In this document: piece after piece, positions 12,210 through 43,960 of the stretch
Position numbering within the stretch: position 1 is the stretch's first letter
How the letters are laid out: every line of letters starts with the position of its first letter
NCBI GenBank assembly: GCA_031292145.1
Contig: JARLHR010000091.1
Coordinates: forward strand, 62,001-126,000
Reading direction: 5' to 3'
DNA length: 64,000 nucleotides
From: Clostridium sp.
GTDB lineage: Bacteria > Bacillota > Clostridia > Clostridiales > Clostridiaceae
Notes under the pieces: model-generated
The model's input: only the letters and a program-made list of their open reading frames with translations
Databases searched by the model: none
What the model was told of the DNA's origin: nothing
Position numbers and translations under genes: made by a program

Positions 12210-12520
12210 TCAGATTTGTAACAAACCTGTACCAAAAATCAACTTACTTTTGTTACAGCCTTTAGAGTAGTAATATCAAGGCTTTGGGGGTTATTTTTTA
12301 AAATTGGAAATAAAAAACATTTACAACTTTTGTTACAGTGAGAACCGTTGGTATCACTAGCCTTACCCTATATATATAATATATATAACAAAAATATAAA
12401 TATATATATATAGATGAGAAATATAATATACATATATATAAAGATAGTGGGTATATATTTTTAAAAGTTGTTACAAAACACGAACATTAGCCAAAGCCTT
12501 GATATCTAAAGGCTTAACGC
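12210..12520. repeat. Origin-like region R1: TGTAACA sites around AT-rich core
   Basis: TGTAACA or TGTTACA occurs at 12217, 12251, 12331 and 12469. A perfect 15-bp inverted repeat (ATATCAAGGCTTTGG at 12273..12287; CCAAAGCCTTGATAT at 12491..12505) brackets the core. The core 12365..12455 is nearly all A/T. The whole block aligns with the reverse complement of 43605..43960. No gene is seen in 12042..12806; the part right of 12520 shows nothing recognisable. Confidence 0.65.
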
Positions 12521-12806
12521 TGTAATATTTTATAAAAATTCTTGGTATGAAAACCTGTTATTTTTGGTATGAGATGAATTTAAGCAGAAAATGAGGATAA
12601 AAGATAAGATTTATTTTGCTCTACAGGCAGTATAATTTCCTCGAAAAATAAGGTATGCGATTTTAAAGGCGAAATTAGCCAATTAAAGGCATTTTATGTT
12701 TAGTTATATAAATCTATAATCTAATGAATAAAAGTTGAAATACGAGCTTATTTGATATACTATATGCAAAAAAATAAGGCTAGGAAATTTAATCCTAGCT
12801 TTAACT

Positions 12807-13469
12807 TTATTTAATTTCATATATTAATGGATTTTTACTATTTGTATCTATTGAATAAGGATCTATTTCAATCCAGTTAGCATTATTTGCATCTGCGACA
12901 TCAACAACAATCTTTGTGACGTCAGTATAATTTTCACCATTATATTGATAATCTGATTTAGTTAATTTTGCATCCTTTATCTCTGAACTATTTCCTTCTT
13001 GGTCTATGACTTTAATTTTCATATATTTTTCTTTTGAGTCTTCTATATCTTCAAATGGTGGAGCTCCTGAAATTAAAGTTATAGTATTATCTTTTAATTC
13101 TACATTTATCATATTTAACACTAAAGGAAGTCCATCAGACGTTGTTTTACTCTTATCATAACAATAATACGGTTTACCTAATTCAGCGACCTCTTTCGGT
13201 TTCCATTCTTTTTTAGGAGCTTCTTTCTTTGCTGGAGTATCTGCTTGTTTAACCTCTTGTTGTGTACTTGCTGTTGTTTGTTCTACTGGCTTATTCTTAC
13301 CTCCTTGTGCTAATGCTCCAACAAACCAAATAGCAAACACTACTGTTAAAATTATAGTTGCATTTTTACTATATCTTTTATTTTTCCATAACAAGAAAAT
13401 TCCTACTGGTGCAAAAAATATTAGACAAACCCACAGAAACCAATCTTTTTCATGAAATTTTTGATTCAT
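12807..13469 (-). CDS. Membrane-anchored protein with extracellular C-terminal domain
   Basis: 220 residues. Two hydrophobic segments lie near the N-terminus (DWFLWVCLIFFAPVGIFLLW, about residues 10 to 29; ATIILTVVFAIWFVGAL, about residues 37 to 53), followed by a Lys/Pro/Ala/Gln linker and a beta-rich C-terminal half. The layout resembles surface proteins with a DUF4352-like or similar domain, but I cannot name it. It has its own consensus promoter, so it is probably expressed in the lysogen. Function unknown. Confidence 0.7.
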   Translation of the reverse strand: MNQKFHEKDWFLWVCLIFFAPVGIFLLWKNKRYSKNATIILTVVFAIWFVGALAQGGKNKPVEQTTASTQQEVKQADTPAKKEAPKKEWKPKEVAELGKPYYCYDKSKTTSDGLPLVLNMINVELKDNTITLISGAPPFEDIEDSKEKYMKIKVIDQEGNSSEIKDAKLTKSDYQYNGENYTDVTKIVVDVADANNANWIEIDPYSIDTNSKNPLIYEIK

Positions 13470-13500
13470 TATGTATCCCCCTTTTAACTTTTATATGTTA

Positions 13501-13528
13501 ATTGTATATTATTTGGTACTTTTGTCAA
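13501..13528 (-). promoter_or_regulatory. Promoter of membrane protein gene
   Basis: - strand TTGACA (13523..13528) and TACAAT (13501..13506), 16 bases apart, about 30 bases before the start at 13469. Confidence 0.7.
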
Positions 13529-13560
13529 ATATATAATGAAAGTATTAACTTAACCCAATA

Positions 13561-13612
13561 AAAAAAGAGATAGTATTTTACAGCAAACCGCCTTAAATAC
13601 TATCTCTTTTTT
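13561..13612. terminator. 18-bp perfect bidirectional terminator
   Basis: 13561..13578 is fully complementary to 13595..13612, with A-runs and T-runs at the ends. It ends the PLD gene on the - strand. Confidence 0.85.
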
Positions 13613-13613
13613 A

Positions 13614-14213
13614 TTAATAATTTGAATAATTATTAGTGTCAGCCCACATAGTGTTAAACTCTGAAGCATATTCACTAACAATATTGGATTCTCTCATTAC
13701 AATTAAATTTTCGTCGTTTTCTTTTGTTGCATTGGCTGTATAGTTATATGAACCGCCAAGTGCTGTTTTATCATCAATTACGCTTAATTTTAGATGCATT
13801 AACCCACTATGTGAATTAATCTTTACTGGAATATTATTAGCTTTAAATTTGTCTAATATAGCCTTTTGTGCCTTAGTTTGAGACTCTTGCTTATCTGTTA
13901 TAATCTTAACATCAATGCCTTTTTTCTTAGCATCAATAATAGCGTTTGCTATATCTTCTTTAGTTAAACTATAAATAGCCACATCCAAAGTCTTTTGAGC
14001 CGTATTAATTTCTTTGATTAATATCTTATCTAAATTACCATCTTTCTTTGTAAAATAAGTTTCTATTTGATTATCTTGAGTTTGAGCACTTGCTGTTTGA
14101 GTTGTTTGCGTATTTGTTTTTGCATCAGCCACTTTACTACTACACCCCACAAATAATAATGATGAGATTATAAATAATCCTGTTGTAATATAAATTATAT
14201 ACTTTCTATTCAT
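13614..14213 (-). CDS. PLD-family nuclease-like lipoprotein
   Basis: The ATG at 14213 has AGGAGGT six bases upstream. The product has a lipoprotein signal with lipobox LLFVGC, a Thr/Gln-rich linker, then one phospholipase D domain. The HKD motif is HLKLSVIDDKTALGGSYN (about residues 142 to 159). A single HKD motif and about 200 residues fit the Nuc/PLDc_2 endonucleases, which act as dimers. The enzyme would sit on the outer face of the membrane and could cut incoming DNA. It is a probable moron beside the lysis genes. A phospholipase role is less likely. Confidence 0.85.
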   Translation of the reverse strand: MNRKYIIYITTGLFIISSLLFVGCSSKVADAKTNTQTTQTASAQTQDNQIETYFTKKDGNLDKILIKEINTAQKTLDVAIYSLTKEDIANAIIDAKKKGIDVKIITDKQESQTKAQKAILDKFKANNIPVKINSHSGLMHLKLSVIDDKTALGGSYNYTANATKENDENLIVMRESNIVSEYASEFNTMWADTNNYSNY

Positions 14214-14222
14214 GAACTTACC

Positions 14223-14279
14223 TCCTGTAATTTGGAGCAACCTAGATTATATTGTGATAACTTAGGCTGCTGCCTTTTT
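14223..14279 (-). promoter_or_regulatory. Second copy of GGCAGCAGCC leader hairpin
   Basis: Same outline as 10510..10586: AAAAAAGGCAGCAGCC directly after the upstream stop, a loop, then AGGTTGCTCCAA before the ribosome site. AGCAGCCTA pairs with TAGGTTGCT. The inner stem sequence differs from the first copy, while the ends are kept. Confidence 0.5.
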
Positions 14280-14461
14280 TATAATTCTTTTTTTCTTTCT
14301 GCAATTAAGTTCTCTAGCTCTTCTAAGTCTTCTAAGGTTGCCTTATTCCTTATAAAGCTTTTTGCACTACTACGACTTTTTAAATAGGATGAGTATTCTT
14401 TATTATTCTCTGACCATTTCTTATTAGCTTTTGTTTGTGCCTCACTTGTTTTTTTCTCCAT
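14279..14461 (-). CDS. Small basic helical protein, 60 aa
   Basis: MEKKTSEAQTKANKKWSENN, then a Ser/Arg-rich middle and an acidic helix (LEDLEELENLIAERKKEL). The motif KANKKWxENNKEYxxYLKSR is one I associate with short conserved proteins of clostridial phages and plasmids, of unknown role. It resembles a small DNA-binding protein of the ribbon-helix-helix kind. It is five bases from the membrane protein gene upstream. Confidence 0.6.
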   Translation of the reverse strand: MEKKTSEAQTKANKKWSENNKEYSSYLKSRSSAKSFIRNKATLEDLEELENLIAERKKEL

Positions 14462-14466
14462 ATATA

Positions 14467-14646
14467 CTACTCCCCTTTCTTGAAGAATTTAATAACCATT
14501 AGAACTATCATTACTATCGCTAAAGCTAATCCTAGAATCTGTAATGTACTCAAATTACTAAAGTCTAATTCCGAAAGCCAAATACCAGTAAGGATTAATA
14601 CTATAATGTCAATGCTCATGTTAAGTTTTTTACTTTTATTATTCAT
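14467..14646 (-). CDS. Small membrane protein, two TM segments
   Basis: The start is uncertain: ATG at 14646 (59 residues) or 14622 lack clear ribosome sites, and the longer frame to 14709 crosses a structured region. Two hydrophobic segments (IDIIVLILTGIWL and ILGLALAIVMIVLMVIKFF) end in a basic tail (KKGE). A holin-like role is possible because of its place near the amidase, but nothing proves it. Confidence 0.5.
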   Translation of the reverse strand: MNNKSKKLNMSIDIIVLILTGIWLSELDFSNLSTLQILGLALAIVMIVLMVIKFFKKGE

Positions 14647-14670
14647 TTTTATTAAAGATGCTGATATAAT
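14642..14670 (+). promoter_or_regulatory. Candidate antisense RNA promoter
   Basis: On the + strand an extended -10 (TGATATAAT, 14662..14670) lies 17 bases after a weak -35 (TTCATT, 14642..14647). The predicted start near 14677 is followed by two hairpins and a terminator at 14756, giving an RNA of about 80 bases opposite the 3' end of 14718..14828. Confidence 0.4.
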
Positions 14671-14676
14671 ATATTT

Positions 14677-14756
14677 AAGGAGTGAGGAGGGAAGTGGTAT
14701 TTCCCTCACCCCTGTGGTTATTTGCGTTTCCTCTTATGGAAACGCTTTTTCTTTTT
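14677..14756 (+). ncRNA. Candidate antisense (antitoxin) RNA
   Basis: Predicted from the promoter before it and the terminator at its end. The first hairpin pairs GTGAGG-GGGAA (about 14683) with TTCCC-TCAC (about 14701); the second is the terminator. It overlaps the last third of the 36-codon ORF on the other strand, as antitoxin RNAs of type I systems in Bacillus and C. difficile prophages do. No expression evidence is available. Confidence 0.35.
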
Positions 14757-14828
14757 CGGTTTTAGTTCTTTTAATAGTTTTATTATTGTTAAGATGAAAA
14801 CTATTATTTGAAGAATGTCTTTCAGCAT
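14718..14828 (-). CDS. 36-aa hydrophobic peptide with basic tail (candidate type I toxin)
   Basis: Ribosome site AAAGGAGG and a near-consensus promoter upstream (14854..14882). Residues 1 to 20 form one hydrophobic helix (MLKDILQIIVFILTIIKLLK); residues 21 to 36 are strongly basic with a run of four Lys and an RKRK end. This shape matches prophage type I toxins of C. difficile and B. subtilis. A terminator for opposite-strand transcription lies inside the gene. The alternative is a small lysis-associated protein, since the amidase gene is next door. Confidence 0.6.
   Translation of the reverse strand: MLKDILQIIVFILTIIKLLKELKPKKKKRFHKRKRK
14724..14756 (+). terminator. + strand terminator inside small - strand ORF
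   Basis: GCGTTTCC (14724..14731) pairs with GGAAACGC (14738..14745), then TTTTTCTTTTT. No + strand protein gene ends here, which points to an untranslated transcript. Confidence 0.65.
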
Positions 14829-14853
14829 CTTTCTACCTCCTTTCCATAATACA

Positions 14854-14882
14854 ATTATACTACACGTACTATGTAAAGTCAA
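14854..14882 (-). promoter_or_regulatory. Strong promoter of 36-aa peptide
   Basis: TTGACT (14877..14882) and TATAAT (14854..14859) on the - strand, 17-base spacer. Confidence 0.75.
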
Positions 14883-14935
14883 TACAGTTTGGTAAATATT
14901 ATGTATATTTGTTAAATTATTTTATTTAAAACGCA

Positions 14936-14975
14936 AAAAAATAAAGGGTACAGGATTAACTCCCATACCCTTAAA
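14936..14975 (-). terminator. Terminator of lysis operon
   Basis: AAGGGTA and TACCCTT pair (14943..14972) and are followed on the - strand by TATTTTTTT. It separates the amidase gene from the small-peptide promoter. Confidence 0.75.
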
Positions 14976-14999
14976 TACTCTTGCCATTAATATATTAAA

Positions 15000-15776
15000 T
15001 TACTTTTCTATTGAATAGAACCAACTTCCAAGAGTTGATTTAAGTTCATTACATTTGTTTATATCTAAGTATTCCGTTTCAATCCATACACCTTTTTCAT
15101 TTCCTTTGGCATAACATTTAACCCCATTAAAATAACTTAATACATAATTAAGGTCTACACCTTGAAAGCTACCATCACCATTACTTCCATTAGGTAGATA
15201 TGTAGTGACAACATATCCTTTTTCATTCGTGGTTGTAGTTCCAGCAACATCTTTAGGAATGTTAGTATCTATTGCATTACAGAATATATGTGCTAACTTT
15301 TCCCAAGAATATTGATTGTAAATATCTATGTCAGTTTGACTATCACAAAAGCATATTTCAAATATAATATTAGGTGCTTGTACATGATTCATTTCATATA
15401 AACCCGTTGATGTTTTTACCCCTCTATTGGTAAAACCTAAATCACCAAAATTAGTACACAAATTAGTTGCATAGCTATATGCTCCACTGCTTGTACTACT
15501 AACCCACGCTTCAACGCCATGACCTTGCCCATCACTTGCATTCATATGCAAAGATACAAATAAATCTACATTATTGCTATTAGCTATATTAGCACCTTCG
15601 CTTAATTCTGCATTTGCATCACTTCCATTGCTATTACAATCTATTACTGTGTGTCCATGTTCCTCTAATACACATTTTACTGCAGCATAATATAATTTCA
15701 TTTGATCATGTTCATTTACAATTCCAACAGCTCCTTCACAATTGTCTGAATGACCTGCTCTTAATCCAATTTTCAT
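15000..15776 (-). CDS. N-acetylmuramoyl-L-alanine amidase (endolysin)
   Basis: The ATG at 15776 has GAAAGG ten bases upstream. The N-terminal 180 residues are an Amidase_3 domain: zinc ligands in RAGHSDN (His), the ELSEG Glu region, SLHMNA (His) and the catalytic Glu in NIIFEICFCDS. The C-terminal 80 residues (GYVVTTYLPNGS to the end) form a probable cell-wall-binding domain of the type seen in clostridial endolysins. It cuts the bond between muramic acid and L-alanine at the end of the lytic cycle. Holin-type genes lie just upstream. Confidence 0.92.
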   Translation of the reverse strand: MKIGLRAGHSDNCEGAVGIVNEHDQMKLYYAAVKCVLEEHGHTVIDCNSNGSDANAELSEGANIANSNNVDLFVSLHMNASDGQGHGVEAWVSSTSSGAYSYATNLCTNFGDLGFTNRGVKTSTGLYEMNHVQAPNIIFEICFCDSQTDIDIYNQYSWEKLAHIFCNAIDTNIPKDVAGTTTTNEKGYVVTTYLPNGSNGDGSFQGVDLNYVLSYFNGVKCYAKGNEKGVWIETEYLDINKCNELKSTLGSWFYSIEK

Positions 15777-15796
15777 AATATCATTTCCTTTCAAAA

Positions 15797-15829
15797 TAAA
15801 ATAAGAGCAACCATAAAGGCTACTCTAAA
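15797..15829 (-). terminator. Attenuator-like hairpin before amidase
   Basis: AGAGTAGCC pairs with GGTTGCTCT (nine pairs with wobble), followed by TATTTTATTTT. The 3' arm shares GGTTGCTC with the two GGCAGCAGCC leaders. Confidence 0.55.
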
Positions 15830-15831
15830 AA

Positions 15832-16329
15832 TTAAGATTGTGCTACTACTTGGCCTGGAATTGTAGCATTGTTTATTTGTGCTGCTACTTGATTATTATC
15901 TGTAGCTTGCGCAGCATTTTCTGCTATTGCAAATAAAGATTTAACTTTGCTTAATTGGTCCTTTAAACTTGCATTTTCTGCTACTAAATTAGTGTTAGTA
16001 CTTTGAAGTTGTTGTAAAAGAGTAGAATTATCTAATACTACAGCTTTCCCTTGGTTTACTTCTCCAGCTATAGCTTGTCTTAAGTTTGCAACATCATCTT
16101 GTGTAAGCTCAGGAAACTTAGCTAATAATGCTTTATCAAATTCATCTGCTTTTGATTTTAATTTTTCTTCTATAGTTGCACTGATTCTAAAGTTTTCATT
16201 TACCATATTCCATATATTCTTAGCTTCAGTAATATAATTTTGATTCTTTAATATAGTTGCTTCTAGTCCAGATTTAACTAATTTACTTTCTAATACCTTT
16301 GTTATTAATACTAAAATTTGTTTTATCAT
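15832..16329 (-). CDS. Helical lysis-region protein, possibly holin-associated
   Basis: 165 residues, ribosome site GAGG. A modest hydrophobic N-terminus (MIKQILVLITKVLE) is followed by helices and a Gln/Asn-rich coiled segment (LLQQLQSTNTNLVAENASLKDQLSKV, quoted here only by ends). Similar proteins sit between XhlA-type genes and amidases in clostridial prophages, where some are called LLH-type holins. No true membrane helix is obvious, so the call stays open. Confidence 0.65.
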   Translation of the reverse strand: MIKQILVLITKVLESKLVKSGLEATILKNQNYITEAKNIWNMVNENFRISATIEEKLKSKADEFDKALLAKFPELTQDDVANLRQAIAGEVNQGKAVVLDNSTLLQQLQSTNTNLVAENASLKDQLSKVKSLFAIAENAAQATDNNQVAAQINNATIPGQVVAQS

Positions 16330-16352
16330 TTTACATACCTCATTTCATTTTT

Positions 16353-16586
16353 TTATTTGAATATTCTTACTTGAATTGCATAAATAAAGAACCCAAGTAA
16401 CGTTGTTACCCAGATTCCTATAAACCACTTCATTACACTTGTAAGTGCTTTTAAATTTTCACATAGATTTTTCAACTCTGTTTTAAAACTTGCATTATCC
16501 TGCTCTAATTTATCTAACTTTTCACTATGACTATTAAGTCTCTTATCATGCGTTTCTAATTTGTCTTTTATTAATTCTTCATTCAT
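16353..16586 (-). CDS. xhlA: XhlA-type hemolysin/holin accessory protein
   Basis: 77 residues: an N-terminal coiled coil with heptads (HDKRLNSHSEKLDKLEQDN) and one C-terminal membrane helix (WFIGIWVTTLLGFFIYAI), the exact plan of the XhlA family of PBSX-like phages. It acts in the cell membrane with a holin to release the amidase. The ribosome site is AGGTG. Two terminators upstream cut it off from the acyltransferase, so expression needs readthrough or a promoter I could not find. Confidence 0.8.
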   Translation of the reverse strand: MNEELIKDKLETHDKRLNSHSEKLDKLEQDNASFKTELKNLCENLKALTSVMKWFIGIWVTTLLGFFIYAIQVRIFK

Positions 16587-24399: not shown

Positions 24400-25482
24400 T
24401 TATGAAATTGTAACTGTTCCAATTACAGGACATTGAGTTAAACTTGATGCATAGGTTAATGGTATTGCAACAGTACTACCGTTAACAGTTAAATTAGTAT
24501 AATCTAGAAAACCTGGGGTATCTATTATCAATGCTCCAATTTTTGAATAACTGACCGAACTAGCATTAAAAGCTATAGTTTGTAAATAATTTGTTAGTGC
24601 ATTTTCAAAATTGGTCTGCCTTTGTGCATCAGAATAATTTGTATCTTTTACTGCTGTAAAACTGACATTTATTGAAAGCGCTGTTGCTGCTTCAACTGTT
24701 GTAAATGCTCCATATGGTGCAGTTCCATAACCTTGTCCCCATGTAGTACCTAACGGATCAATAACGGTTTGCATTGTATTAATAAAGTCTGTGCTTGGTG
24801 GTAATTTATTTGCATCTATGACAACAAGTAATATTGTATTGTTACCATTCCATGTTGGATATACTTTAACATCACCAACACCGCTATAATCTTTTGCTAA
24901 ACTTGTGAAATAAGCTATATTGCCACCAGTTTGCGGAGATTGTAACTTTTCGTAATATCTTTCAAGTAAAGAACTATCGCTTTCAGCATCATAGCCACCA
25001 CTACTTGCTCCTAGATTAGTTACACTTGTTATACCGCTTATTGATATTGGCATTTGAGTTATTTGTCCTGCTGGTACATTCCCTGTGCTTCCTGCTATTA
25101 CTGCTTGTACTGGTACTGCTCCTGTTCCGCTTATTGTAGTTGCTTGGTTTACTGAAAATTGGATTCTGCTAGGAGTTTGAAATAATTGACCTACGCTCAA
25201 AGCAACATTTCCTGTAATAGTTAGATTTGTTGTTGCATAAGTTGCATCGTTTCTAGTTAATCCAGTTCTTTCATATACTCTGCTTGCTAATTCATCTCCT
25301 GTGAGATTAGATATATCAAATTTTGATGCTAAATTATCCATTTTGATTAAAGCTTTGTTCATTTCTTGGCTTACTGCTGATGGAATATCATAAGCAATAT
25401 AACCTTCTGTTTTATCGGTTGTATCTGAAATGTTCCCTAACATTCTGTTTAATATCGTTGCACTATCTTCGCTATACGCCAT
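24400..25482 (-). CDS. xkdT: Baseplate J-like wedge protein (XkdT-like)
   Basis: 360 residues with gpJ family motifs: LDSRxxERTGL-like opening (ASRVYERTGLTRNDAT), AVIAGSTGNVPAGQI (about residues 125 to 140), SDSSLLERYYEKLQSPQTGG (about residues 170 to 190). It forms baseplate wedges of the contractile tail. Ribosome site GGAGGTG lies inside the upstream gene, with an 11-base overlap. Confidence 0.92.
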   Translation of the reverse strand: MAYSEDSATILNRMLGNISDTTDKTEGYIAYDIPSAVSQEMNKALIKMDNLASKFDISNLTGDELASRVYERTGLTRNDATYATTNLTITGNVALSVGQLFQTPSRIQFSVNQATTISGTGAVPVQAVIAGSTGNVPAGQITQMPISISGITSVTNLGASSGGYDAESDSSLLERYYEKLQSPQTGGNIAYFTSLAKDYSGVGDVKVYPTWNGNNTILLVVIDANKLPPSTDFINTMQTVIDPLGTTWGQGYGTAPYGAFTTVEAATALSINVSFTAVKDTNYSDAQRQTNFENALTNYLQTIAFNASSVSYSKIGALIIDTPGFLDYTNLTVNGSTVAIPLTYASSLTQCPVIGTVTIS

Positions 25483-30362: not shown

Positions 30363-30949
30363 TTAAGAGTTATTCATTGCTTCAATTTCTGCATTTCTTT
30401 CATCAATTTCCTTAGTTAGAAATACACCTAATATTTTCTTTTCTCCATAACCTAAACCATTATATTTAGCTGGTGGCATGTGGTGAAGTTTCCATGCATA
30501 ATACATTGCTTGGGCTTCACCATCCACCTCTAAGAGTTTTTTATTTCTTTATCTGCCTTTTCTACTTCCGTAATTCCGCTAAGCTCTGAAATTGTTTTTG
30601 CAAGTTTTGTTACGTCTCCAACTTTGAATAGTTTTTTATCTTTCAATAGTTCTTTTGGAGTTATTTTCCCAAAATGCTCCAATAAAGTTTTATCCTTTAT
30701 GTCCGGTACGCCTTCCAATACAAGTTGAATATTCATTTCTCCAGTATTTACTCCTGTTAAATTGCCTTTTTTATCAAATTCAACCGAATTCTTTTGAATC
30801 TCATTGTAAACATCTAGAGAAACTGGATAGCAAGCAAATTTAACATCTTCTTTTAGTATTTCACTTAATTTATCAACTTTACATTCCTTTGTCTCTATCT
30901 CTAATTTCCCAGCATCTATTTTTAACAATTTTTCAATTATATTTTTCAA
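30363..30949 (-). CDS. Tail assembly chaperone, frameshifted long form
   Basis: A -1 shift at A AAA AAC (- strand, bases 30542..30536) would fuse the first 141 codons of the zero-frame ORF to a further 57 codons ending at 30363 (LLEVDGEAQAMYYAWKLHHM...EIEAMNNS). The heptamer is in the correct phase, four codons before the zero-frame stop, and TGGTGAAG/CTTCACCA can form a stem downstream. This is the G/GT-like arrangement of long-tailed phages. The long form is expected to recruit the tape measure to the tube protein. Confidence 0.75.
30530..30949 (-). CDS. xkdN: Tail assembly chaperone, short form (XkdN-like)
   Basis: About 139 residues from the likely TTG start at 30949 (GAGGTG six bases upstream); a GTG at 30958 overlaps that site. 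The N-terminal MKNIIEKLLKIDAGKLEIET and LVLEGVPDIKDKTLLEHFGKITPKELL (quoted in part) fit XkdN/phage tail assembly chaperones. It stops at 30530, three codons past the slippery heptamer. Confidence 0.82.
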   Translation of the reverse strand: MKNIIEKLLKIDAGKLEIETKECKVDKLSEILKEDVKFACYPVSLDVYNEIQKNSVEFDKKGNLTGVNTGEMNIQLVLEGVPDIKDKTLLEHFGKITPKELLKDKKLFKVGDVTKLAKTISELSGITEVEKADKEIKNS

Positions 30950-31008
30950 TTTTAACACCTCTTTATTATTTTTAAATTTTATTAGGAAGCCTTCAAGACT
31001 TCCGTATA

Positions 31009-31443
31009 TTATTGTGGCGTAATTGTATCTAACTTTTTATACTTGGTAAATGTAAATGGTATAGTTTCTTCACCAGTTTTCCCAGTTTCCCAATCTATTA
31101 AAGTTAACGAATCAAATTTAGCATCTAAAATTGCAATTCTTTCTGCACCAAATGCGTCTGGATCTGCTACATTTGAAACTAATGTGCATACTGTTTCTTT
31201 CCCAGCATCTAAATCGTCACTTTGCTTTTGAATCATTCTACTATAAACTTTCAACAACTTTATAGTTCCTTTGCCTTCCGTAGATACTGTTTTTGTATCT
31301 GTTGCTAATTGGCCTGGAATAACAATCTTAGTTTTTTGCCTTGTAATTTCTGCTTTTAGTGCGGATGTTTCTCCTGCTTGATCTCCGTCAATCCACATTT
31401 CTCCATATGAGCCATTGATGACTCTTTCCCCATTAAAACTCAT
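31009..31443 (-). CDS. xkdM: Tail tube protein (XkdM-like)
   Basis: 144 residues with SFNGERVINGSYGEMWIDG and KIVIPGQLATDTKTVSTEG, then TFTKYKKLDTI, the DUF2001/XkdM pattern. It polymerises into the inner tube of the contractile tail. It follows the sheath gene, as in PBSX. Ribosome site AGGAGGTG. Confidence 0.92.
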   Translation of the reverse strand: MSFNGERVINGSYGEMWIDGDQAGETSALKAEITRQKTKIVIPGQLATDTKTVSTEGKGTIKLLKVYSRMIQKQSDDLDAGKETVCTLVSNVADPDAFGAERIAILDAKFDSLTLIDWETGKTGEETIPFTFTKYKKLDTITPQ

Positions 31444-31457
31444 TTCTTATACACCTC

Positions 31458-32564
31458 CTATATACCTATATTTAAATCAAAGTTTTCAATCGCATCTAAA
31501 ATCGACATATTTCCAGCCAATAGGACTGTGTCGCCTGTATTTGCTTCTTTGATTTGTTGGTCTGTCATTTTTGAAATATCTGTGCCTTGTGCTTTTAAGT
31601 ATGCTCTTTGTGCTACCATATCAATATCAATCGAATAGGTAGTATCAATTAATTTATCGCTTATTAATTGGTCACAATATCCATGGATAGCAGTTATAAG
31701 TAAACATTTATCATTATAGTCATTTGGATATTTACCGATATAGTAATCATTTATAGTTGAATCTATATCATCATTTATTTGGTCCATAATATCAACTTGT
31801 TTAATTTTTTGATAATCTCTTCCTTTGGTTGATGTGAGAGTTGTTAAGCTGTTAACTGCTCTTGCTACTTTAACCTTTTTACCATCATTCATTAAAACAA
31901 ATTTTCCTGCCGCAATTGCTGTATTGAAATCTGTTATAGTCATGTGCGGAACATCTGAAACTTCCGGCAATACTGCATATGTAGCGGATTGCTTTAATGG
32001 TGTTCCTGCAATAAGTCCTGCTATTCTTGTACAATAATCTGCAGCTGCATATGTTTCATTTGATATTGAAGTTGTCCCATCTGGATTTGCTGTTGTAGTA
32101 TTTACGATTATATTATCAGTTTCAAAGTCGATAATTCCTTCGTGATTTGCCACTGTATGCGGTAAAACTGCTTTTACTTTCATACCACTATTATCTCTCA
32201 ATCCTTTTATCCATGTTGAAATAGTTGTTGCATCTGCTGAATCTATTCCTGGAACTGCCAAGTAGTCCCATTGTTCGGCTTCTAATGCTGTCATAGCTGC
32301 TGAGTAGTCTGTTGCTGCTGTTGGTTCTACGTATGCAATAACTCTTGTTGGCGTTGTTACATTACCTATCCATGCATCATTAAGTTGTTTTATATTATAA
32401 GTTGTCAATGTCGAAGGAATATCATCTGTTGAATCCATTATAATTAATCCAGCATTAGTTGAATCTTTTAGAATCAATGCGACAATCCCTCTATTTCCTC
32501 TTTGTATCGCTGTTGCTCCTGCTTCATTAAAAGCAACTGTAACGCTTGGTAATCCTAAAGCCAT
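31458..32564 (-). CDS. xkdK: Tail sheath protein (XkdK-like)
   Basis: 368 residues. The N-terminus (MALGLPSVTVAFNEAGATAI, RGNRGIVALIL) and the block VLPHTVANHEGIIDFETDNI mark the contractile sheath. The C-terminal KYPNDYNDKCLLITAIHGYC and LDAIENFDLNIGI also fit. Its presence sets the phage as a myovirus. Ribosome site GAGG. Confidence 0.93.
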   Translation of the reverse strand: MALGLPSVTVAFNEAGATAIQRGNRGIVALILKDSTNAGLIIMDSTDDIPSTLTTYNIKQLNDAWIGNVTTPTRVIAYVEPTAATDYSAAMTALEAEQWDYLAVPGIDSADATTISTWIKGLRDNSGMKVKAVLPHTVANHEGIIDFETDNIIVNTTTANPDGTTSISNETYAAADYCTRIAGLIAGTPLKQSATYAVLPEVSDVPHMTITDFNTAIAAGKFVLMNDGKKVKVARAVNSLTTLTSTKGRDYQKIKQVDIMDQINDDIDSTINDYYIGKYPNDYNDKCLLITAIHGYCDQLISDKLIDTTYSIDIDMVAQRAYLKAQGTDISKMTDQQIKEANTGDTVLLAGNMSILDAIENFDLNIGI

Positions 32565-33020
32565 TTATTGATCCTCGCTTTCTATATTTAAATTTAATTT
32601 AACCGTTCCAATCATTGGAACTTGCGTTGGTGTTGGTTGTTTGTCCTCTGTCAAAGTCAAATTCAAGGTTATATAAACTTCTTTATCTCTTGGCCCACCT
32701 GTCATTTGGGCAACCTTTACAGCCCTATCTCCAACTGTGAAATAACCAATCTTAAATATTTCTTTTATTGAATCTGACATGTTGTACTGGTCTACTGCAT
32801 CTACATTTGTGTAATCATCAACAAATGGTGCATAATATACAATTTGAATAAATATGTTATTATCCATTGTAAATTTATTCATATCTTTTGTTGCGCTATT
32901 AATTTGAGATATAAAAAAGGAAGGTCTTTCGAATCCTTCCCCTTGATTGCTCAAATGTACAATAGCATCACTTTGCTGTGCTATTAACGTACTAATAGCG
33001 GTTATAATATCCATTATCAT
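32565..33020 (-). CDS. Tail terminator-like protein, 151 aa
   Basis: The ORF fits the slot of the PBSX-like XkdJ region and the size and composition of tail terminators (FERPSFFISQINSATKDMNK, NNIFIQIVYYAPFV). It stops one base before the sheath start. The ribosome site AGGTGA is seven bases before the first ATG. The call is supported by position more than by sequence. Confidence 0.7.
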   Translation of the reverse strand: MIMDIITAISTLIAQQSDAIVHLSNQGEGFERPSFFISQINSATKDMNKFTMDNNIFIQIVYYAPFVDDYTNVDAVDQYNMSDSIKEIFKIGYFTVGDRAVKVAQMTGGPRDKEVYITLNLTLTEDKQPTPTQVPMIGTVKLNLNIESEDQ

Positions 33021-33031
33021 AATTTCTTCAC

Positions 33032-33505
33032 CTACTTATTAAAGGTGTTGTATAGGCTTTGATTATCTGCTGATATTTTATCTAGCATTTCTTCAATCCA
33101 TCTTTCAAGTTCTGGTTCTGCCTTTCCTTGAAAAGCTTGAAAACCGTTTTCCATAAAATGAGTTCCTGGAATAAATTTTTCACTTAACATTACACCTTCG
33201 CTATTAGGACAATTTTTCATGTATTCCGCTGGCAGAAATCTTTGGTGTTGTACATGTCCATCGTTAACAGCTTGAGCATATTCAACATCTGTTCCGGTTT
33301 CAGCGCTATCATTGTCTACTACTTGGGTATTTATTGAACTTCTTAGCCTTCCAGTATCCACGTTAACCAATGGCTTTATTTCTGCTTCCATCATTAGCCC
33401 TAACTTTAACAACTGCTTTTTCTTTTCCTCTGGAAATCTATTGGCCACACCAGCTAAAACTTTTTGAATATTTTCTAATCCATCAATTTTAAATTCAGTA
33501 TCCAT
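33032..33505 (-). CDS. HK97 gp10-like head-tail protein
   Basis: 157 residues with KIDGLENIQKVLAGVANRFP and VDTGRLRSSINTQV, then VEYAQAVNDGHVQ(H): the typical gp10/XkdI signature (DTGxLRxS...Y.xxVExG). It closes the neck between head and tail. Ribosome site GAGG. Confidence 0.88.
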   Translation of the reverse strand: MDTEFKIDGLENIQKVLAGVANRFPEEKKKQLLKLGLMMEAEIKPLVNVDTGRLRSSINTQVVDNDSAETGTDVEYAQAVNDGHVQHQRFLPAEYMKNCPNSEGVMLSEKFIPGTHFMENGFQAFQGKAEPELERWIEEMLDKISADNQSLYNTFNK

Positions 33506-37734: not shown

Positions 37735-39786
37735 TTAATCAAATGTAGGAATAGTAGTACACCTACAATTTATTACATTCTCAGCACTTCCACCCATTCC
37801 TCCTGGACACTCTAGTTCTTCACCATCTACAATAAAATTTTTATCTAAATCAACTTTTTGTCCATCGGCTTCGGCGTGCCATTCCCTTTCTCGTCCATCT
37901 AGAGCGGTCAACCACTGCTTACCATTTACTACTCCGCTTTGGTCATAACTCAGTATAGAAGCGTTATTTGATGCCCCTATGACTTCCGTTCTTGCAATGC
38001 TTTCAATTCTATAATCTTTCATACCATCACAATATTCACTTATTCTATTAATCAACTTTGGAATACTTTCCCCTAGTCCTTGACCTTCAACTAATTGATT
38101 CTTTATAAGGCTTTGAGTAGTAGAATTGATATATTTTATTTGATCACCACAATACTTATTAAGCCATTCAGTAACTTTTGGGTCATGTAGATTAAATGAA
38201 GTATCAACATTTAATTCATCCATGACTTGGGCACCTTTATCAGCTATTATTTTCTTTAGTAATGATATTATTTGGTCTTTCATATAGTCAGACTCTTCTT
38301 TACCATTTAAAAAGTCCAATATATCATTCAGACTAATATCTTTAATATGCTTTTGTGATTTTATATTAGCAATTATCTTATCTTTCTGATGTTCAAATAT
38401 TCCTTCCCATACTGGCTTCATATCTTTTTCAAATTTATCAGTTTTTTGTACGAATGCTTTCCAATATGTTTCCTTATCTAAATTGTCAAACTGTGATTTA
38501 AGTTTTTTTTTAATGTTTTTTTGTGGCTCCTGAGGTGTTTCATCTTTAGGTGGTGTTGGTTGCGCGGTTGGCATTGGAGTTCCCAAGGGTTGCAATCCTA
38601 CTGGTTGATATATTACGTCTCCACCTTCAATATGTGGTAAATTCCACCCCATAAGTTTATTCAGCGCATCCCTTACCTCATTCTTAGTTAATGATTTATC
38701 TATTTGTGTATCTAATACAGACTTTACAAAATCCTTGTTTTTAGGAACTGGATCCGTAAACTTAATCTCAGAATCTTCTTTGAATAATGGCACAAACTCA
38801 TTGTTAAGAACATCTTGAATTAAATGAAGCAACGGTTTAATAGTATGCATTGCAAATGTATATTCTGCTGCCTCGGCTGTACTCCTATTTACATCATCAG
38901 TAATACCTACTATTGACTTCGGTACACCAAATGCTCCTAATATACCATCCCTTGTGTTATCTTTTAGGTTGGATATATCAAGGTCTTTGATATTAATATT
39001 TATAGGTGTAAAAGTTACAGAACCACCTTTAGTAAAAAGTATCTCTCCGCTGTTTTCTACGCCTCTATGCTTATCCTTATATTGCTCCACTGCTCTATCA
39101 TATTCGTTTTCTTCCATGTCTGGAAAATTAACAATTCCACCAGGTCTTGCATCATTATAAAAGAAATTTTTAACATAAGTTGAGGTATATTTGTCTATTT
39201 CTAAATTACTAGCAGCTGCTTGTGCTGGACCTTTACCACTATAAGGATTTAATAAGTCAGGCAGATTAATAAATATAACTTCATCAACATCTAATGGAAT
39301 TTGTTCTGCCCCAGCCTTATACATATACCCTTTTATAAAATTATTTCTATCTGGAACTACCCAAATATCAAGAGGATTTAAACACCATATCTCTGTAGGT
39401 CTTCCAAGTCTATCTTTAGCAATATACCAAAAACATCTACCTGTTAATTCAAGGTAAGCGCAGCTTTTCCAAAGTAACTGGTATTGACTCATAAATCTAT
39501 TAGGATGTTTAAGCACGTTTAGAGCTAAACTATTCTCTTGAACAACGTCTCCCTTATAAGCCTTCCATTCACTAGAACCTATATCTTGACTTATACGATT
39601 TACTGCCACAAAAAGCCATCCTATTTCCCCATAGGACCTTAAGAAATCAGAAGTATTCATTGTTGGTGCTATAAGTGTTTGTTGAGAATAAAATCCATCA
39701 AACATTTTTCTTCTAGCAGTATCAACTCCTTTAACCACTTTATCTACTGTCTTTTTAAAATTAAAAAAGCCTATCTTTCTCACCAC
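37735..39786 (-). CDS. Portal protein fused to MuF-type head protein
   Basis: 683 residues. The first 430 are an HK97-type portal (TSDFLRSYGEIGWLFVAVNR, RPTEIWCLNPLDIWVVPDRN, RSTAEAAEYTFAMHTIKPLL). A Pro/Thr/Gln linker (PMPTAQPTPPKDETPQEPQK, quoted) leads to a SPP1 gp7/MuF-type domain ending ECPGGMGGSAENVINCRCT. These are separate genes in most phages, so one protein does two jobs: DNA gate and minor head protein. The start is unclear among GTG codons at 39786 and 39783. Confidence 0.88.
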   Translation of the reverse strand: MVRKIGFFNFKKTVDKVVKGVDTARRKMFDGFYSQQTLIAPTMNTSDFLRSYGEIGWLFVAVNRISQDIGSSEWKAYKGDVVQENSLALNVLKHPNRFMSQYQLLWKSCAYLELTGRCFWYIAKDRLGRPTEIWCLNPLDIWVVPDRNNFIKGYMYKAGAEQIPLDVDEVIFINLPDLLNPYSGKGPAQAAASNLEIDKYTSTYVKNFFYNDARPGGIVNFPDMEENEYDRAVEQYKDKHRGVENSGEILFTKGGSVTFTPININIKDLDISNLKDNTRDGILGAFGVPKSIVGITDDVNRSTAEAAEYTFAMHTIKPLLHLIQDVLNNEFVPLFKEDSEIKFTDPVPKNKDFVKSVLDTQIDKSLTKNEVRDALNKLMGWNLPHIEGGDVIYQPVGLQPLGTPMPTAQPTPPKDETPQEPQKNIKKKLKSQFDNLDKETYWKAFVQKTDKFEKDMKPVWEGIFEHQKDKIIANIKSQKHIKDISLNDILDFLNGKEESDYMKDQIISLLKKIIADKGAQVMDELNVDTSFNLHDPKVTEWLNKYCGDQIKYINSTTQSLIKNQLVEGQGLGESIPKLINRISEYCDGMKDYRIESIARTEVIGASNNASILSYDQSGVVNGKQWLTALDGREREWHAEADGQKVDLDKNFIVDGEELECPGGMGGSAENVINCRCTTIPTFD

Positions 39787-39803
39787 CTTTCAGGTAAAAT
39801 AAA

Positions 39804-39826
39804 AAGCCTTATTTCTAAGACTTAAT
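39804..39826 (-). terminator. Weak terminator before portal
   Basis: AAGTCTTA and TAAGGCTT (39816..39823 and 39804..39811) with loop GAAA, followed by TTTATTTTA on the - strand. Confidence 0.5.
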
Positions 39827-39827
39827 T

Positions 39828-39971
39828 TCAATTGGTTGAAGTTGTTTTTCCTAAATCTTCTTTCAGTTTAGCATTTATATTTGTTTTTTCCATGTCTCCA
39901 ACTCTCTCATGTTCAATTGTTATGCTTTCTACCCTAGGATTATTTAAAAGCTCTTTTAACAATTTTTCCAT
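39828..39971 (-). CDS. Small hypothetical protein, 47 aa
   Basis: Ribosome site AAAGGGG. MEKLLKELLNNPRVESITIE followed by a short charged tail (GKTTSTN). It fills the gap between large terminase and portal. It resembles short acidic helical proteins of unknown role at this place in related phages. Confidence 0.55.
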   Translation of the reverse strand: MEKLLKELLNNPRVESITIEHERVGDMEKTNINAKLKEDLGKTTSTN

Positions 39972-39991
39972 TAAACACTTTCCCCTTTCAA

Positions 39992-41725
39992 TTAAGCCCA
40001 AGTCATTTTAAATTGTCCTGTGCTTTTAATATCTCCAATTCTATTTGTAAACTCAGCAGTTATATCAGGTGCATCATCATGAAGTGAATACTTTTGACCT
40101 CTAAATTCAAGTATTTGATCTGTAAATTCTGTATCTTCTTCACAAAATATAATCTGCCCTTTGTTCATAAAAGGAATTATTGTTGAGATTTTATCGTCCT
40201 TATTCTTCTTTTGAGATTCATTAATTATAGTGATTTTTTTATGTTTCAATACAGGATCATCTTTAATTGATTTCTCAAGTAAATTTGCATCAGCCCCATT
40301 GAAAGTGTTTTTTTCAATGTATACACAAGTTATATCTAGATATTCTTTTAATAACTCAACCATATGCTTAACATACTTATCAAAATCAGTTCTAGCATTT
40401 ATCTTTGCTAATTCTGCTTTACGAGCATACTTTAATTTGTTATCTGCCTCACTTCCAACTAAAAAAGCACTATAGTCTGATGTGGTTTTAGCAGTTGCAC
40501 CAGGATCAACACACAACATAGTTTTTCTAAATTTATGTGTTTCAATAATTGCTCTTGTTTCAGTTGCTACAGTTTTAAACCACTTTTCACCAATAGAATC
40601 AACATCACCTTGAACCTCTTGTTTAAATGAACTAGGATTCTCATAATAACTCATAGCCATATCTAAGCAATCCCAAAATTCAGCCCATAGAATAGGAAAT
40701 TTCATTTCCTCTTGATGTGACCAATAGAATTCTTTAGCATCTTCCAAATGTGTTTCAACTTTGAAATTAAATAAGATATCTTTGAATTGTTTCCATAACC
40801 CTGTATCAAAATAGTGGTCAAGTCCATTAATCTTTTCACCATTTTCATTTACAAAATCATCAATTAAGACCCCTTTTTTATTTTTAAATTTCCATGTTGG
40901 CAGCTTCATCAGCCTGCTATAAAAACATTCCTTATGCTGCAATGTTCCAAGAGCAATAAAAGTTGTACCTTTTTTTACAACTTTTCCATTTCTATAAACA
41001 GCTTTTTGACTAGCATACTTAACATCATCTGAAAATCGCTTCCACTTTTTTGCTCTGGCATCTTCTGTTCTAACATCATCTTCTGATTGATAGTCATCCA
41101 GGACTATTAAATCTGGTCTGCAATTATCATATTTTCTACCACGCATAGGAGAGCTTGAAGAAATAGCTTCTAAAAAAGATACATTCGTAAACTCTAACTG
41201 TGTAGAATTACAAATGTATCTTTTATCTCTATCATCTAATATCTTTCCAAATGCCTTTTCAATATATTGATTTTCTAAGAATGTATTTTTTATATCTTTT
41301 ATAAACTTCTCAGCAGTACTTCCTATATCGGAACAAATCAAAGTATATTTTTTGAATCCATAGCAATGACTCCAGATTGTTGTAGCAAAAGTACCAAATG
41401 CACTCTTCCCTGTACCTCTTGGAAATATTCTTCCTATTTGGTCTGAACCATCACCAATTATTGATTCCTGAATATCGGCCCACAATTCATGATGAACTTC
41501 AGCTATAGGTGCTGCTGTGTTATTCTCTTTAGGTAAGAAAACATCTTGAAGAAAATATAAACAAAAGAATTCCAATGATCTCTTACCAACAGACCAAGCA
41601 AGTCCATGATAATCAAACAAATGGTCTTTATGCTTATACATAAGTTCCTTTGCTTTTTCTGCTGAATATAATTTTTTTAAATATGTATACAACAACCTTC
41701 TGTTTTCTTTATTTTCATCAATCAT
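39992..41725 (-). CDS. terL: Terminase large subunit
   Basis: 577 residues with the ATPase Walker A-like motif RIFPRGTGKSAFGTF (about residue 100), Walker B-like DLIVLDDY (about residue 215), and the nuclease part with MLCVDPGATAKTTSDYSAFL (first acidic centre, about residue 407) and YIEKNTFNGADANLLE (second). The N-terminal lead (LLYTYLKKLYSAEKAKELM) fits phage-packaging motors. It cuts and pumps DNA into proheads. Confidence 0.93.
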   Translation of the reverse strand: MIDENKENRRLLYTYLKKLYSAEKAKELMYKHKDHLFDYHGLAWSVGKRSLEFFCLYFLQDVFLPKENNTAAPIAEVHHELWADIQESIIGDGSDQIGRIFPRGTGKSAFGTFATTIWSHCYGFKKYTLICSDIGSTAEKFIKDIKNTFLENQYIEKAFGKILDDRDKRYICNSTQLEFTNVSFLEAISSSSPMRGRKYDNCRPDLIVLDDYQSEDDVRTEDARAKKWKRFSDDVKYASQKAVYRNGKVVKKGTTFIALGTLQHKECFYSRLMKLPTWKFKNKKGVLIDDFVNENGEKINGLDHYFDTGLWKQFKDILFNFKVETHLEDAKEFYWSHQEEMKFPILWAEFWDCLDMAMSYYENPSSFKQEVQGDVDSIGEKWFKTVATETRAIIETHKFRKTMLCVDPGATAKTTSDYSAFLVGSEADNKLKYARKAELAKINARTDFDKYVKHMVELLKEYLDITCVYIEKNTFNGADANLLEKSIKDDPVLKHKKITIINESQKKNKDDKISTIIPFMNKGQIIFCEEDTEFTDQILEFRGQKYSLHDDAPDITAEFTNRIGDIKSTGQFKMTWA

Positions 41726-42073
41726 GCCTTACCTCGACTTAAAAAAATTTTATAGAAAATGTGGAACCCAATAATCCAAATTCAGCCCCAAACTTTTTTG
41801 GGGGGATTTTCATTTTTCTAAAAAAGCGGGAAATAATTATTAATATTTATTCATTATCAAATGTATATTTATGGTTTTATGCATTAATTATTCATATGTT
41901 TTTATACATTTCACTTATTTTAAAATGAAATAATATACAAATGCCACTCTATGCAAGTAATACACTCATTCTTTATAATTTCGTTATCATTAAATTATTT
42001 CGCTAAATAAAAACTAAGCGAAATAACTTTATACATTTAAACTAATCTTTAATTTCAACTATGGGAAATAATA
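41726..42073. other. Gene-free gap between terL and terS
   Basis: About 350 bases with no ORF. It contains a perfect 10-bp inverted repeat (TTATTTCGCT at 41995..42004 and AGCGAAATAA at 42017..42026), a CCCCAAA/TTTGGGG hairpin near 41788, and inverted AAATGTATA/TATACATTT copies. terS and terL are usually adjacent, so this gap may hold a packaging (pac/cos) site or a decayed gene. Confidence 0.5.
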
Positions 42074-42469
42074 TTATTCATTTTCAAATTCATTTAACTC
42101 CTGGTCCAATATATCTGTAGTAATATTATCTTTATCATCTCTACTATCATCTAACTCAACCCTAGTTGTTGCTCTGCCTAGGTTTCTATCAAGGATATCT
42201 TGAGCAGCAGCCAGTCTTGTCTTTTCATATTTGCCATTAGTAAGTAACTTAATCATTTCATCAGCAGCATTCTTAGCAGCACATTTTAATTTTCCTTGTG
42301 CTGCATAAATAAACTCCTGTCCGAATCTATTCACTTCAGCGTTAAATTCCTCTAACTTCTTCCACTCATAAATAGTGCTTCTTGCAACCTTAACTTCTTT
42401 TACAATATCTGATATTATCATGCCTTGAGCAATTAATCTAGCAACTTCTATTTGCCTTTCATCTAACAT
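42074..42469 (-). CDS. terS: Terminase small subunit
   Basis: 131 residues. The N-terminal HTH (QIEVARLIAQGMIISDIVKE and VARSTIYEWKK) is followed by RLAAAQDILDRNLGRATTRV, the phBC6A51-like small-terminase pattern, and an acidic tail (DQELNEFENE). It recognises the packaging start. Ribosome site GAAGGG. It is the first late gene after the terminator at 42595..42622. Confidence 0.9.
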   Translation of the reverse strand: MLDERQIEVARLIAQGMIISDIVKEVKVARSTIYEWKKLEEFNAEVNRFGQEFIYAAQGKLKCAAKNAADEMIKLLTNGKYEKTRLAAAQDILDRNLGRATTRVELDDSRDDKDNITTDILDQELNEFENE

Positions 42470-42594
42470 ATAATCACTTCCCTTCTATCGGACAATATAT
42501 TTTATATCTCTTAGCCTTGTTGTTAAGTTTTATTTCATTATTCGAGTACTATTTCAACTCAAAATAAAACCTTTGTGCAAGCTTATAAAGTGCA

Positions 42595-42622
42595 TTAAAA
42601 AAGAACCCTGTTAAGAGTTCTT
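42595..42622 (-). terminator. Terminator between early/late boundary gene and terS
   Basis: AAGAACTC and GGGTTCTT (42601..42622) followed by TTTT on the - strand. The late promoter should therefore lie between 42470 and 42594, but none was clear to me. Confidence 0.65.
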
Positions 42623-42632
42623 AAAATAATTA

Positions 42633-42788
42633 TTATTTAGTGACTTTTTCCTGTAACCATCTTAGTAAAGATAAGCTGTCTATTTCTCCATTTTCTTTTA
42701 AAATCTTATGGGTTGCCATGTAATATGCTATTGCATCAGCCATTTCATATTCATCTTTCATAGATTTTAGTCTTTCAAAATTATTCAT
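42633..42788 (-). CDS. Small hypothetical protein, 51 aa
   Basis: Ribosome site AGAAGGGG; promoter with an extended -10 at 42814..42822. MNNFERLKSMKDEYEMADAI, then a KILKENGEIDSLSLLRWLQE block: a helical, acidic protein. Enclosed by two terminators, so it is a single-gene transcript between regulator and terminase. Function unknown. Confidence 0.6.
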   Translation of the reverse strand: MNNFERLKSMKDEYEMADAIAYYMATHKILKENGEIDSLSLLRWLQEKVTK

Positions 42789-42813
42789 ATAACCCCTTCT
42801 TTCCTATAGGTTG

Positions 42814-42822
42814 ATTATATCA
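42814..42822 (-). promoter_or_regulatory. Extended -10 promoter of small gene
   Basis: TGATATAAT on the - strand, 26 bases before the ATG at 42788, just after a terminator. No clear -35. Confidence 0.5.
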
Positions 42823-42832
42823 TAATAGTTTA

Positions 42833-42868
42833 AAAAGACACCTACAATTTAATATGTAAGTGCCTCTT
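42833..42868 (-). terminator. Terminator of early region
   Basis: GGCACTTACA and TGTAGGTGTC pair at ten positions with wobble (42837..42846 and 42855..42864), then TTTTT. Confidence 0.7.
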
Positions 42869-42969
42869 TGTTTTATTTCTATGATACTATTATATAGCCT
42901 TAAAACCATTGAAAACAGTAATGTTATGATAATAATGTAATAATAAAAATATAAGAAAGTAATAATAAA

Positions 42970-43410
42970 CTATAATATAAATGAAGATATTTTATCTATT
43001 ACTTTTCTTCTAACCTTAATACAATTATCTACCGATTGATTTAAGTCTTGAGCAATACTTGTCCAACTTCTTGTTGGTTTACTAAAATATCTTAACTCTA
43101 CAAGCTTTCTTTCATCATCTTCTAATAGATCTAATGTTGTATTTATTAATTCCTTTTCAATAGTTCTACTTTCTTTTTCTTTTTTAAGCTGCTCTACTTT
43201 ACTACTAATATGTTCATCACGTTTAATTACTTCATTTTCAACACATGAACTAAATGCATTAGTTGGACTACTCTTTTCTTCATATGAGATTGCTTTTACA
43301 GATACATCATTAAGTAACTGCTTAATTTTTATATCTGCTAATTGATTTAATTTATCTATATCTTTATAACTATATAAGTGATATTCTGTTTTTTTAAATT
43401 TGTCTTCCAT
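42970..43410 (-). CDS. ArpU/RinA-like late gene regulator
   Basis: 146 residues. The C-terminal third is a sigma-70 region-4-like HTH (LLEDDERKLVELRYFSKPTR, then WTSIAQDLNQSVDNCIKVRR), preceded by a basic coiled region. This is the ArpU-type late activator found just upstream of terS in Firmicute phages. Ribosome site CAGGAGG lies in the upstream gene. It probably switches on the packaging and structural genes. Confidence 0.8.
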   Translation of the reverse strand: MEDKFKKTEYHLYSYKDIDKLNQLADIKIKQLLNDVSVKAISYEEKSSPTNAFSSCVENEVIKRDEHISSKVEQLKKEKESRTIEKELINTTLDLLEDDERKLVELRYFSKPTRSWTSIAQDLNQSVDNCIKVRRKVIDKISSFIL

Positions 43411-43570
43411 TCCTAGCCTCCTGAATCTTTTGTATTTGTTTTTCTAAATCTTTCTTTTCAACTAATAGCGGTTTTATATTAATAGCACATCTAGTTTTAT
43501 ATGCCTTTTTAAGCTGCTTATCTATTTCCCTAACTCTATCTTTTTTAACTTCTAACATATCAGGTTTCAA
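43394..43570 (-). CDS. Small coiled-coil protein, 58 aa
   Basis: TTG start at 43570 with GAGGTG six bases upstream gives MKPDMLEVKKDRVREIDKQL. The longer frame to 43633 would run into the repeat region and has no ribosome site. The product is one basic amphipathic helix. It overlaps the ArpU-like gene by 17 bases, so it may support that regulator. Confidence 0.6.
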   Translation of the reverse strand: MKPDMLEVKKDRVREIDKQLKKAYKTRCAINIKPLLVEKKDLEKQIQKIQEARNGRQI

Positions 43571-43604
43571 TTTAATCACCTCATTTTTGAGTTTGTACCA
43601 AAAA

Positions 43605-43960
43605 ATAACGAGTTTTGTAACAAGAATTTTCACCCCTTTGTTACGCTTCTAACCATTGATATCACAAAGCTTAGAGAGTATTTTTAATTTTGTAACAAAA
43701 ATCTAAAATACCTACTACCCATCTTTATATATAAGAGAGTATATATATTTCTCATCATATACATATATATATTTATATTTTTGTTATATTTATAATATAT
43801 ATATATATAAAGGGCATAACCATGCGGTCTGAGGTCTGTAACAAAACTTGTAACAAGAAATTTTTATCCATTTTTTAACATTAGCCTCAAAGCATTGGTA
43901 TGACTAGCTTTGAGCCTGTAACAAAAAACATACCAAAAATTTAAGTTTTTGTTACAAAGT
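43605..43960. repeat. Origin-like region R2: TGTAACA sites around AT-rich core
   Basis: TGTAACA or TGTTACA at 43616, 43691, 43837, 43849, 43917 and 43950, with a variant at 43639. The core 43725..43810 is A/T only and contains ATTTCTCATCATATA, the reverse of the R1 core block. CTCAAAGC and GCTTTGAG (about 43886 and 43907) form a dyad at the place of the R1 dyad. The block aligns with R1 in reverse orientation throughout. No gene lies in 43571..43982. Confidence 0.65.

Follow-up and report, generated by a model that had tools for sequence, protein, structure and literature searches.

Why would a temperate phage carry two copies of what looks like a replication origin, facing in opposite directions on either side of its late genes? 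The question is raised by a prophage in a 64,000-nucleotide stretch of a Clostridium sp. genome (GCA_031292145.1, contig JARLHR010000091.1, positions 62,001 to 126,000; hereafter the window, with coordinates counted from its first letter), in which a first-pass annotation had described two inverted origin-like regions about 31 kb apart. We found that these regions, R1 and R2, are diverged, inverted copies of one element whose short repeats (iterons) surround the least stable stretches of phage DNA. Loci of the same iteron family as R2 lie directly behind a primase-helicase gene in relatives (shown for 13 of 19 examined). From sequence comparison, R1 and R2 probably serve one phage as a pair of replication origins of the iteron type, and its own primase-helicase (46793-49396, minus strand) probably reads both.

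R1 and R2 are diverged copies of one element

R1 (12217-12547, plus strand) and R2 (43594-43969, minus strand, 3' of the primase-helicase gene) comprise 350-400 bp each, with an AT-rich core flanked on either side by TTGTTACA-type iterons. The R1 iterons are located at 12217 (TGTAACAA), 12250, 12330 and 12468 (TTGTTACA), with the core at 12369-12469; in R2, exact TGTAACA sites surround a core at 43712-43812. When 100-bp stretches were ranked by duplex stability (nearest-neighbour energy, SantaLucia values), the R1 core came out as the least stable of the prophage and the R2 core as the second least stable. Exact TGTAACA sites number four in R1 and six in R2, as first counted, and the whole window contains 37, compared with 14 expected.

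R1 and reverse-complemented R2 share 76% identity over 212 columns (blastn E 1e-24). Their local alignment score is 164, also with the coordinates of the first-pass annotation, whereas dinucleotide-shuffled versions of R2 (n = 500) average 26 and reach at most 44. The pairwise alignment suggested at the outset as a check is thus significant beyond shuffled controls, and the inverted copies are real. The two copies resemble each other strongly in the left flank and core but weakly in the right flank: the left flank alone scores 65 against a background maximum of 41 (n = 2974), whereas the right flank alone, with one iteron in register, scores 25, a value equalled by 178 of 2974 AT-rich background pairs. 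The initial description of an alignment through the whole length thus holds for the left flank and core but not for the right flank. Likewise, the statement that neither copy contains a gene is correct in substance; an open reading frame (ORF; 43394-43633) extends 29 bp into the edge of R2 when read from its GTG start, but by eye the likely start lies outside R2.

Because plain DNA searches of the genus mostly returned AT-rich noise (50 of 68 genomes had a match at E 0.001, almost always of this kind), we built a sequence-only (covariance-free) model of the element from nine cores. It matches R1 at 12328-12475 (66.2 bits) and R2 at 43691-43846 (84.4 bits), both of which were in the training set, and nothing else in their own genome, where plain DNA searches gave further weak AT-rich matches.

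The inverted pair recurs in related phages

A DNA search of the 68 genus genomes and of fetched stretches, followed by application of the model to viral records, identified the inverted pair in five phages: that of the window, G022 (copies 32 kb apart), G018 (Clostridium neonatale LCDC 99-A-005, 26 kb apart), G067 (C. weizhouense YB-6) and G074 (16 kb apart across the integrase side). In G067, the copies lie on two contigs, one on each, and their inverted orientation is a deduction from a contig join based on late-gene directions. Both copies of G074, which was outside the training set, were found by the model (52.4 and 51.5 bits). The element is present in six of eight viral records; the records of G069, G071, G073 and G075 stop short of, or close to, the position at which R1 would be expected from the spacing in complete cases. 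At E 1e-6, the model has matches in five of the 206 genomes of the family and five of the 225 of the order, the fifth genome being G141, with a 37.8-bit match directly behind its primase gene. No match was obtained with blastn of R2 against phages or of R1 against plasmids, and our literature search found no description of this element.

The pair keeps its anatomy and position. The two cores rank first and second in instability in the window, G022 and G018 as well as in two G074 stretches, and the core ranks first in each G067 stretch. R1 begins about 180 bp inside the left end of the G022 prophage, which is delimited by 95-bp repeats at 3301983 and 3350726. Its distance to the broken host gene in G018 is about 100 bp, and that to the integrase gene in G074 about 450 bp; in G067, host-like genes begin within about 400 bp of it (by eye), and in the window it lies 3.6 kb inside the prophage end. 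R2 is found in all five phages just upstream of a small gene and a RinA-like gene. The genes between the two copies have diverged among these phages: the tail, head and terminase proteins of G022 are 30-38% identical to those of the window and its lysis genes near R1 66-67%, while the G067 terminase is 64% identical. Sites of recombination or inversion were considered and rejected, since the relative direction of late and early genes is constant in the pair-bearing phages compared.

Copies of one pair tend to share their iteron word. Counts of TGTTACA to TTGTTAT in R1 and R2, respectively, are 8:0 and 9:0 in G067, 0:12 and 0:11 in G074, 3:5 and 3:7 in G022, 4:1 and 6:1 in the window, and 4:2 and 4:0 in G018. 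In a tree of the copies, R1 of G022 groups with R1 of G074 (support 1.00) and R1 of G018 with R2 of G018 (0.99); this branching therefore does not prove a single old duplication, and the AT-richness of the element weakens all alignment-based trees. A further single copy in G018 (77318-77475) is located beside an apparent prophage remnant. There (L048, 74873-78549), it adjoins endolysin, holin-like and sigma-region-4 proteins, in what looks like a prophage stripped of its structural genes.

The element accompanies a primase-helicase gene

Seven minus-strand ORFs of the window are represented by relatives in each of the four other pair-bearing phages (24400-25482, 31458-32564, 42970-43410, 43394-43633, 46793-49396, 50083-50382 and 51342-51932). 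Among them, the primase-helicase appears to be the likeliest initiator. It combines a DnaG-type zinc ribbon, detected by Pfam in 14 of 15 members, with Toprim and P-loop domains, for which the model matches are weak. All six viral records with the element also carry this gene; G069, G070 and G071 are the independent cases, the other three having been fetched by their primase. The occurrence of the element tracks that of the primase-helicase and not that of the Rep-like, ParM-like or RinA-like genes. In G069, the gene (30739-33347) is split into two overlapping frames of 725 and 152 aa, which indicates either a broken gene or a sequencing error.

Relatives of the primase-helicase gave 33 matches in 28 of the 206 family genomes, four of them in the pair-bearing phages. 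In 13 of 19 further relatives examined, the most repeated 7-mer of the fetched stretch falls within 1 kb behind the primase gene, and no other 400-bp window scores as high. In addition, a cluster is located about 3 kb behind the gene in G081, and inspection by eye revealed iteron pairs in G049 and a cluster behind the gene in the viral record G072; a further cluster suspected in G182 and another model match in G141 were not upheld by eye. The iteron words of the single-cluster relatives differ and include AGGTAACC, ATGTTACC, GGTTACAA, ATGTTACA and GTTATTA, among others. Near the C-terminus of the primase-helicase, a change from KQxR to KQxT (by eye) accompanies the phages with pure TTGTTAT words (G073, G074 and G075); as these may share one ancestor, we treat the association as a lead only.

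The primase-helicase has no match at E 1e-20 in 50,697 GenBank phage records, and eight Terrisporobacter plasmids encode a relative that is 28-31% identical. Four of these plasmids (L179-L182, circular, about 21 kb) carry proline reductase and selenocysteine genes, and in the same four the relative is the only gene annotated for DNA replication, in gene tables that are incomplete. A 59,182-bp contig (C1 of G133; L108-L110) carries the primase-helicase with a single GTTATTA cluster behind it and is perhaps a phage-plasmid; no overlap of its ends was found.

Parallels with known origins and a possible mechanism

Replicons with similar features suggest how such a pair may work. In the placement of the site, the closest parallel is the self-loading Rep of Staphylococcus aureus pathogenicity islands (SaPIs) and of the staphylococcal cassette chromosome SCCmec, an initiator helicase of mobile elements with an iteron origin behind its gene. 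The SaPI Rep helicase binds iterons directly behind its own gene via its C-terminal domain, and the SaPI5 Rep is fused to a primase (PMC7581432). Such a placement is seen in 13 of the 19 relatives described above, but R2 of the window lies 2.8 kb from the gene. However, SaPI primases are of the archaeo-eukaryotic primase (AEP) type, unlike the DnaG-type zinc ribbon and weak Toprim found here, and neither D5/Primase_Cterm nor DUF927, the Rep types of such islands, is among the 25 of 61 Pfam families listed for primase-helicase members. No twin origin is mentioned for SaPIs in the passages cited (PMC7581432). Further parallels are the crenarchaeal plasmid pRN1, for which a probable origin just 3' of the primase-helicase gene is described, although as a single 100-nt stem-loop instead of iterons (PMC4234260), and the alpha protein of satellite phage P4, which unites a primase with the initiating helicase in a single fusion (PMC7145576).

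In the number of sites, the element resembles Bacillus subtilis phage SPP1, whose oriL and oriR are 12-13 kb apart one way and about 31 kb the other, and for which a switch from theta to concatemer replication has been proposed to occur when a fork stalls at oriR (PMC6316719, PMC3485210). Like SPP1-type two-origin phages, the window has two distant sites with repeats and an AT-rich core. SPP1 is lytic, employs gp38 with the helicase loader gp39 and the helicase gp40, and has oriL inside gene 38; the pair described here, in contrast, is intergenic, tied to a primase-helicase and found in temperate phages. Its copies are inverted; the cited passages on SPP1 do not show how oriL and oriR are oriented to each other. 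Neither R1 nor R2 lies inside the proposed initiator gene. The best reading of these parallels would be a placement of the SaPI kind combined with an SPP1-like number of origins.

The SaPI-like placement, the two sites as in SPP1 and the recombination genes of the phage together lead us to interpret R1 and R2 as a pair of origins belonging to a primase-helicase replicon. The primase-helicase would bind the iterons, melt the AT-rich core and load itself, as suggested by placement, co-occurrence and the SaPI Rep precedent. A Sak4-like single-strand annealing recombinase (53450-54100), an ERCC4-type nuclease (51342-51932) that could be a partner in recombination-dependent replication, and a weakly SSB-like protein (52529-53119; phrog_378 at E 1e-4, with phrog_18107, of a function not known, as best family), all encoded on the minus strand, would suit a switch from theta to concatemer replication. 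For R1 itself, we tentatively entertain two roles by analogy: it might be a second origin, or a barrier to the fork from R2 at which theta replication gives way to concatemer synthesis driven by recombination, in line with the proposal for SPP1. The firing of either copy, and the stalling of forks at R1 as the onset of concatemer synthesis, are likewise inferences. It is rather unlikely that the inverted pair forms a built-in fork trap, in which forks from R2 would run into an initiator complex that faces the other way at R1, next to attP, so that the fork breaks and concatemer synthesis starts at a fixed place; if this were true, an R1 at the boundary of an unexcised prophage would also copy flanking host DNA.

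The family thus delineated consists of temperate Clostridium phages with the same type of origin once or twice, in which initiator and iterons change together. Comparing its members could address what purpose a second phage origin serves and how a self-loading primase-helicase chooses its site. For annotation, it supplies a rule, namely to seek an iteron cluster behind the gene of this primase-helicase.

Evidence against the twin-origin reading and alternatives to it

Several observations weigh against twin origins read by the primase-helicase. In the proposed check by GC skew, values at fourfold sites, counted on the plus strand and summed over bins, are not consistent across the window (G/C of 196/257 in late and 81/69 in early genes), G022 (137/169 and 75/57) and G018 (122/122 and 62/63). 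In the window, R2 does not directly follow the primase-helicase gene but is separated from it by 2.8 kb containing other genes. In the 1-kb test of relatives, one of the 19 tied (G060) and five failed (G023, G081, G028, G049 and G166); ten of the 33 primase matches were left out of it, and the exact-word repeat score was run after a one-mismatch version had been seen to separate poorly. No iterons were found behind the gene in the Terrisporobacter plasmids. The agreement of iteron words between the copies of a pair is a modest test: of 120 permutations of the five pairs, 4 do as well. Finally, no convincing second cluster was seen in the 16-62 kb fetched per genome for the single-copy relatives, and G070 has R2 and the primase-helicase but no R1 detected over 89.7 kb spanning its expected place. 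R1 is therefore, judging from the single-copy relatives, not generally needed to initiate. Near that place (47037-47789, L104), G070 has two genes that by eye are ParA-like and RHH-like, respectively.

Twin origins were one of three options in the first-pass annotation and are the one supported here; centromere sites and early/late operators fit less well. The alternatives that survive best concern the role of R1 or the identity of the reader. In satellite phage P4, replication involves two cis sites, ori and crr, the second being an accessory region, and ori1/crr is a parallel for an origin with a distant enhancer. By analogy, R2 alone might be an origin and R1 a control site for initiator titration, handcuffing or distant enhancement. 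The single-copy relatives and G070, which manage without R1, would agree with this, as would the smaller number of exact iterons in R1 of the window. However, R1 retains an AT-rich core besides its iterons, the least stable stretch of the whole prophage in both the window and G022, and a pure titration site would not need such a core. We regard this alternative as improbable.

It is less probable still that the origins are read by another protein: the Rep-like winged-helix protein (10988-11650, minus strand), the small protein 43394-43633, the 99-aa protein 50083-50382 or a host factor. The two small proteins are kept in all four other pair-bearing phages, just as the primase-helicase is, and the Rep-like protein has weak matches to phage replication initiation families. 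Yet its gene was not found in G018 and G067, both of which bear the element. Conversely, it occurs in 11 of the 68 genus genomes (E 1e-20), nine of which lack the element, and in G068, which has neither element nor primase-helicase; we therefore rejected it as the reader. A tblastn search with it against phages gave no match. For a host factor, a scan for DnaA boxes yielded one TTATCCA in R2 and none in R1. Whereas Rep-like, ParR-like and RHH proteins had initially been put forward as binders of the TGTAACA sites, the evidence points instead to the primase-helicase.

Operators for early/late transcription, read by the RinA-like regulator or a repressor, are very unlikely, even though R2 lies upstream of the RinA-like gene in all five phages: R1 of the window is situated between the 3' ends of convergent genes (11774-12019, plus, and 12807-13469, minus), the AT-rich core is unusually unstable, and the RinA-like protein, rejected as the reader, is 93% identical in the window and G022 and by eye has an unchanged helix-turn-helix, despite their different iteron words. 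Least likely of all are centromere-like partition sites of the ParM-like system, which is present in the window, G022 and G067 but was not found in G018 and G074, two of the five pair-bearing phages, and was rejected as the reader for this reason, the element accompanying the primase-helicase instead.

Prophage setting

A perfect 53-bp direct repeat at 8572-8624 (attL, part of a tRNA-Leu) and 61730-61782 (attR, within the tRNA-Leu gene 61729-61812) bounds a prophage of about 53.2 kb, bearing out both its initial recognition and the location of the two copies, in opposite orientation, on both sides of the late genes. Its tyrosine integrase is encoded at 60686-61657 (minus strand). A similar tyrosine integrase gene (7487-8428) ends just outside the repeat at 8572-8624, beyond this prophage, and suggests a neighbouring element integrated at the same tRNA-Leu site. 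The first gene after R2 is that of the small protein (43394-43633, minus strand; 79 aa as listed, with a true start that is probably internal), followed by the RinA/ArpU-like late regulator with its sigma-region-4-like helix-turn-helix (42970-43410, minus strand). The ParM-like actin homologue is encoded at 9466-10320 (minus strand). The strongest repeated-word signal of the window comes from 56249-57109, which encodes a protein with many short repeats of the NTGD/NTGN type.

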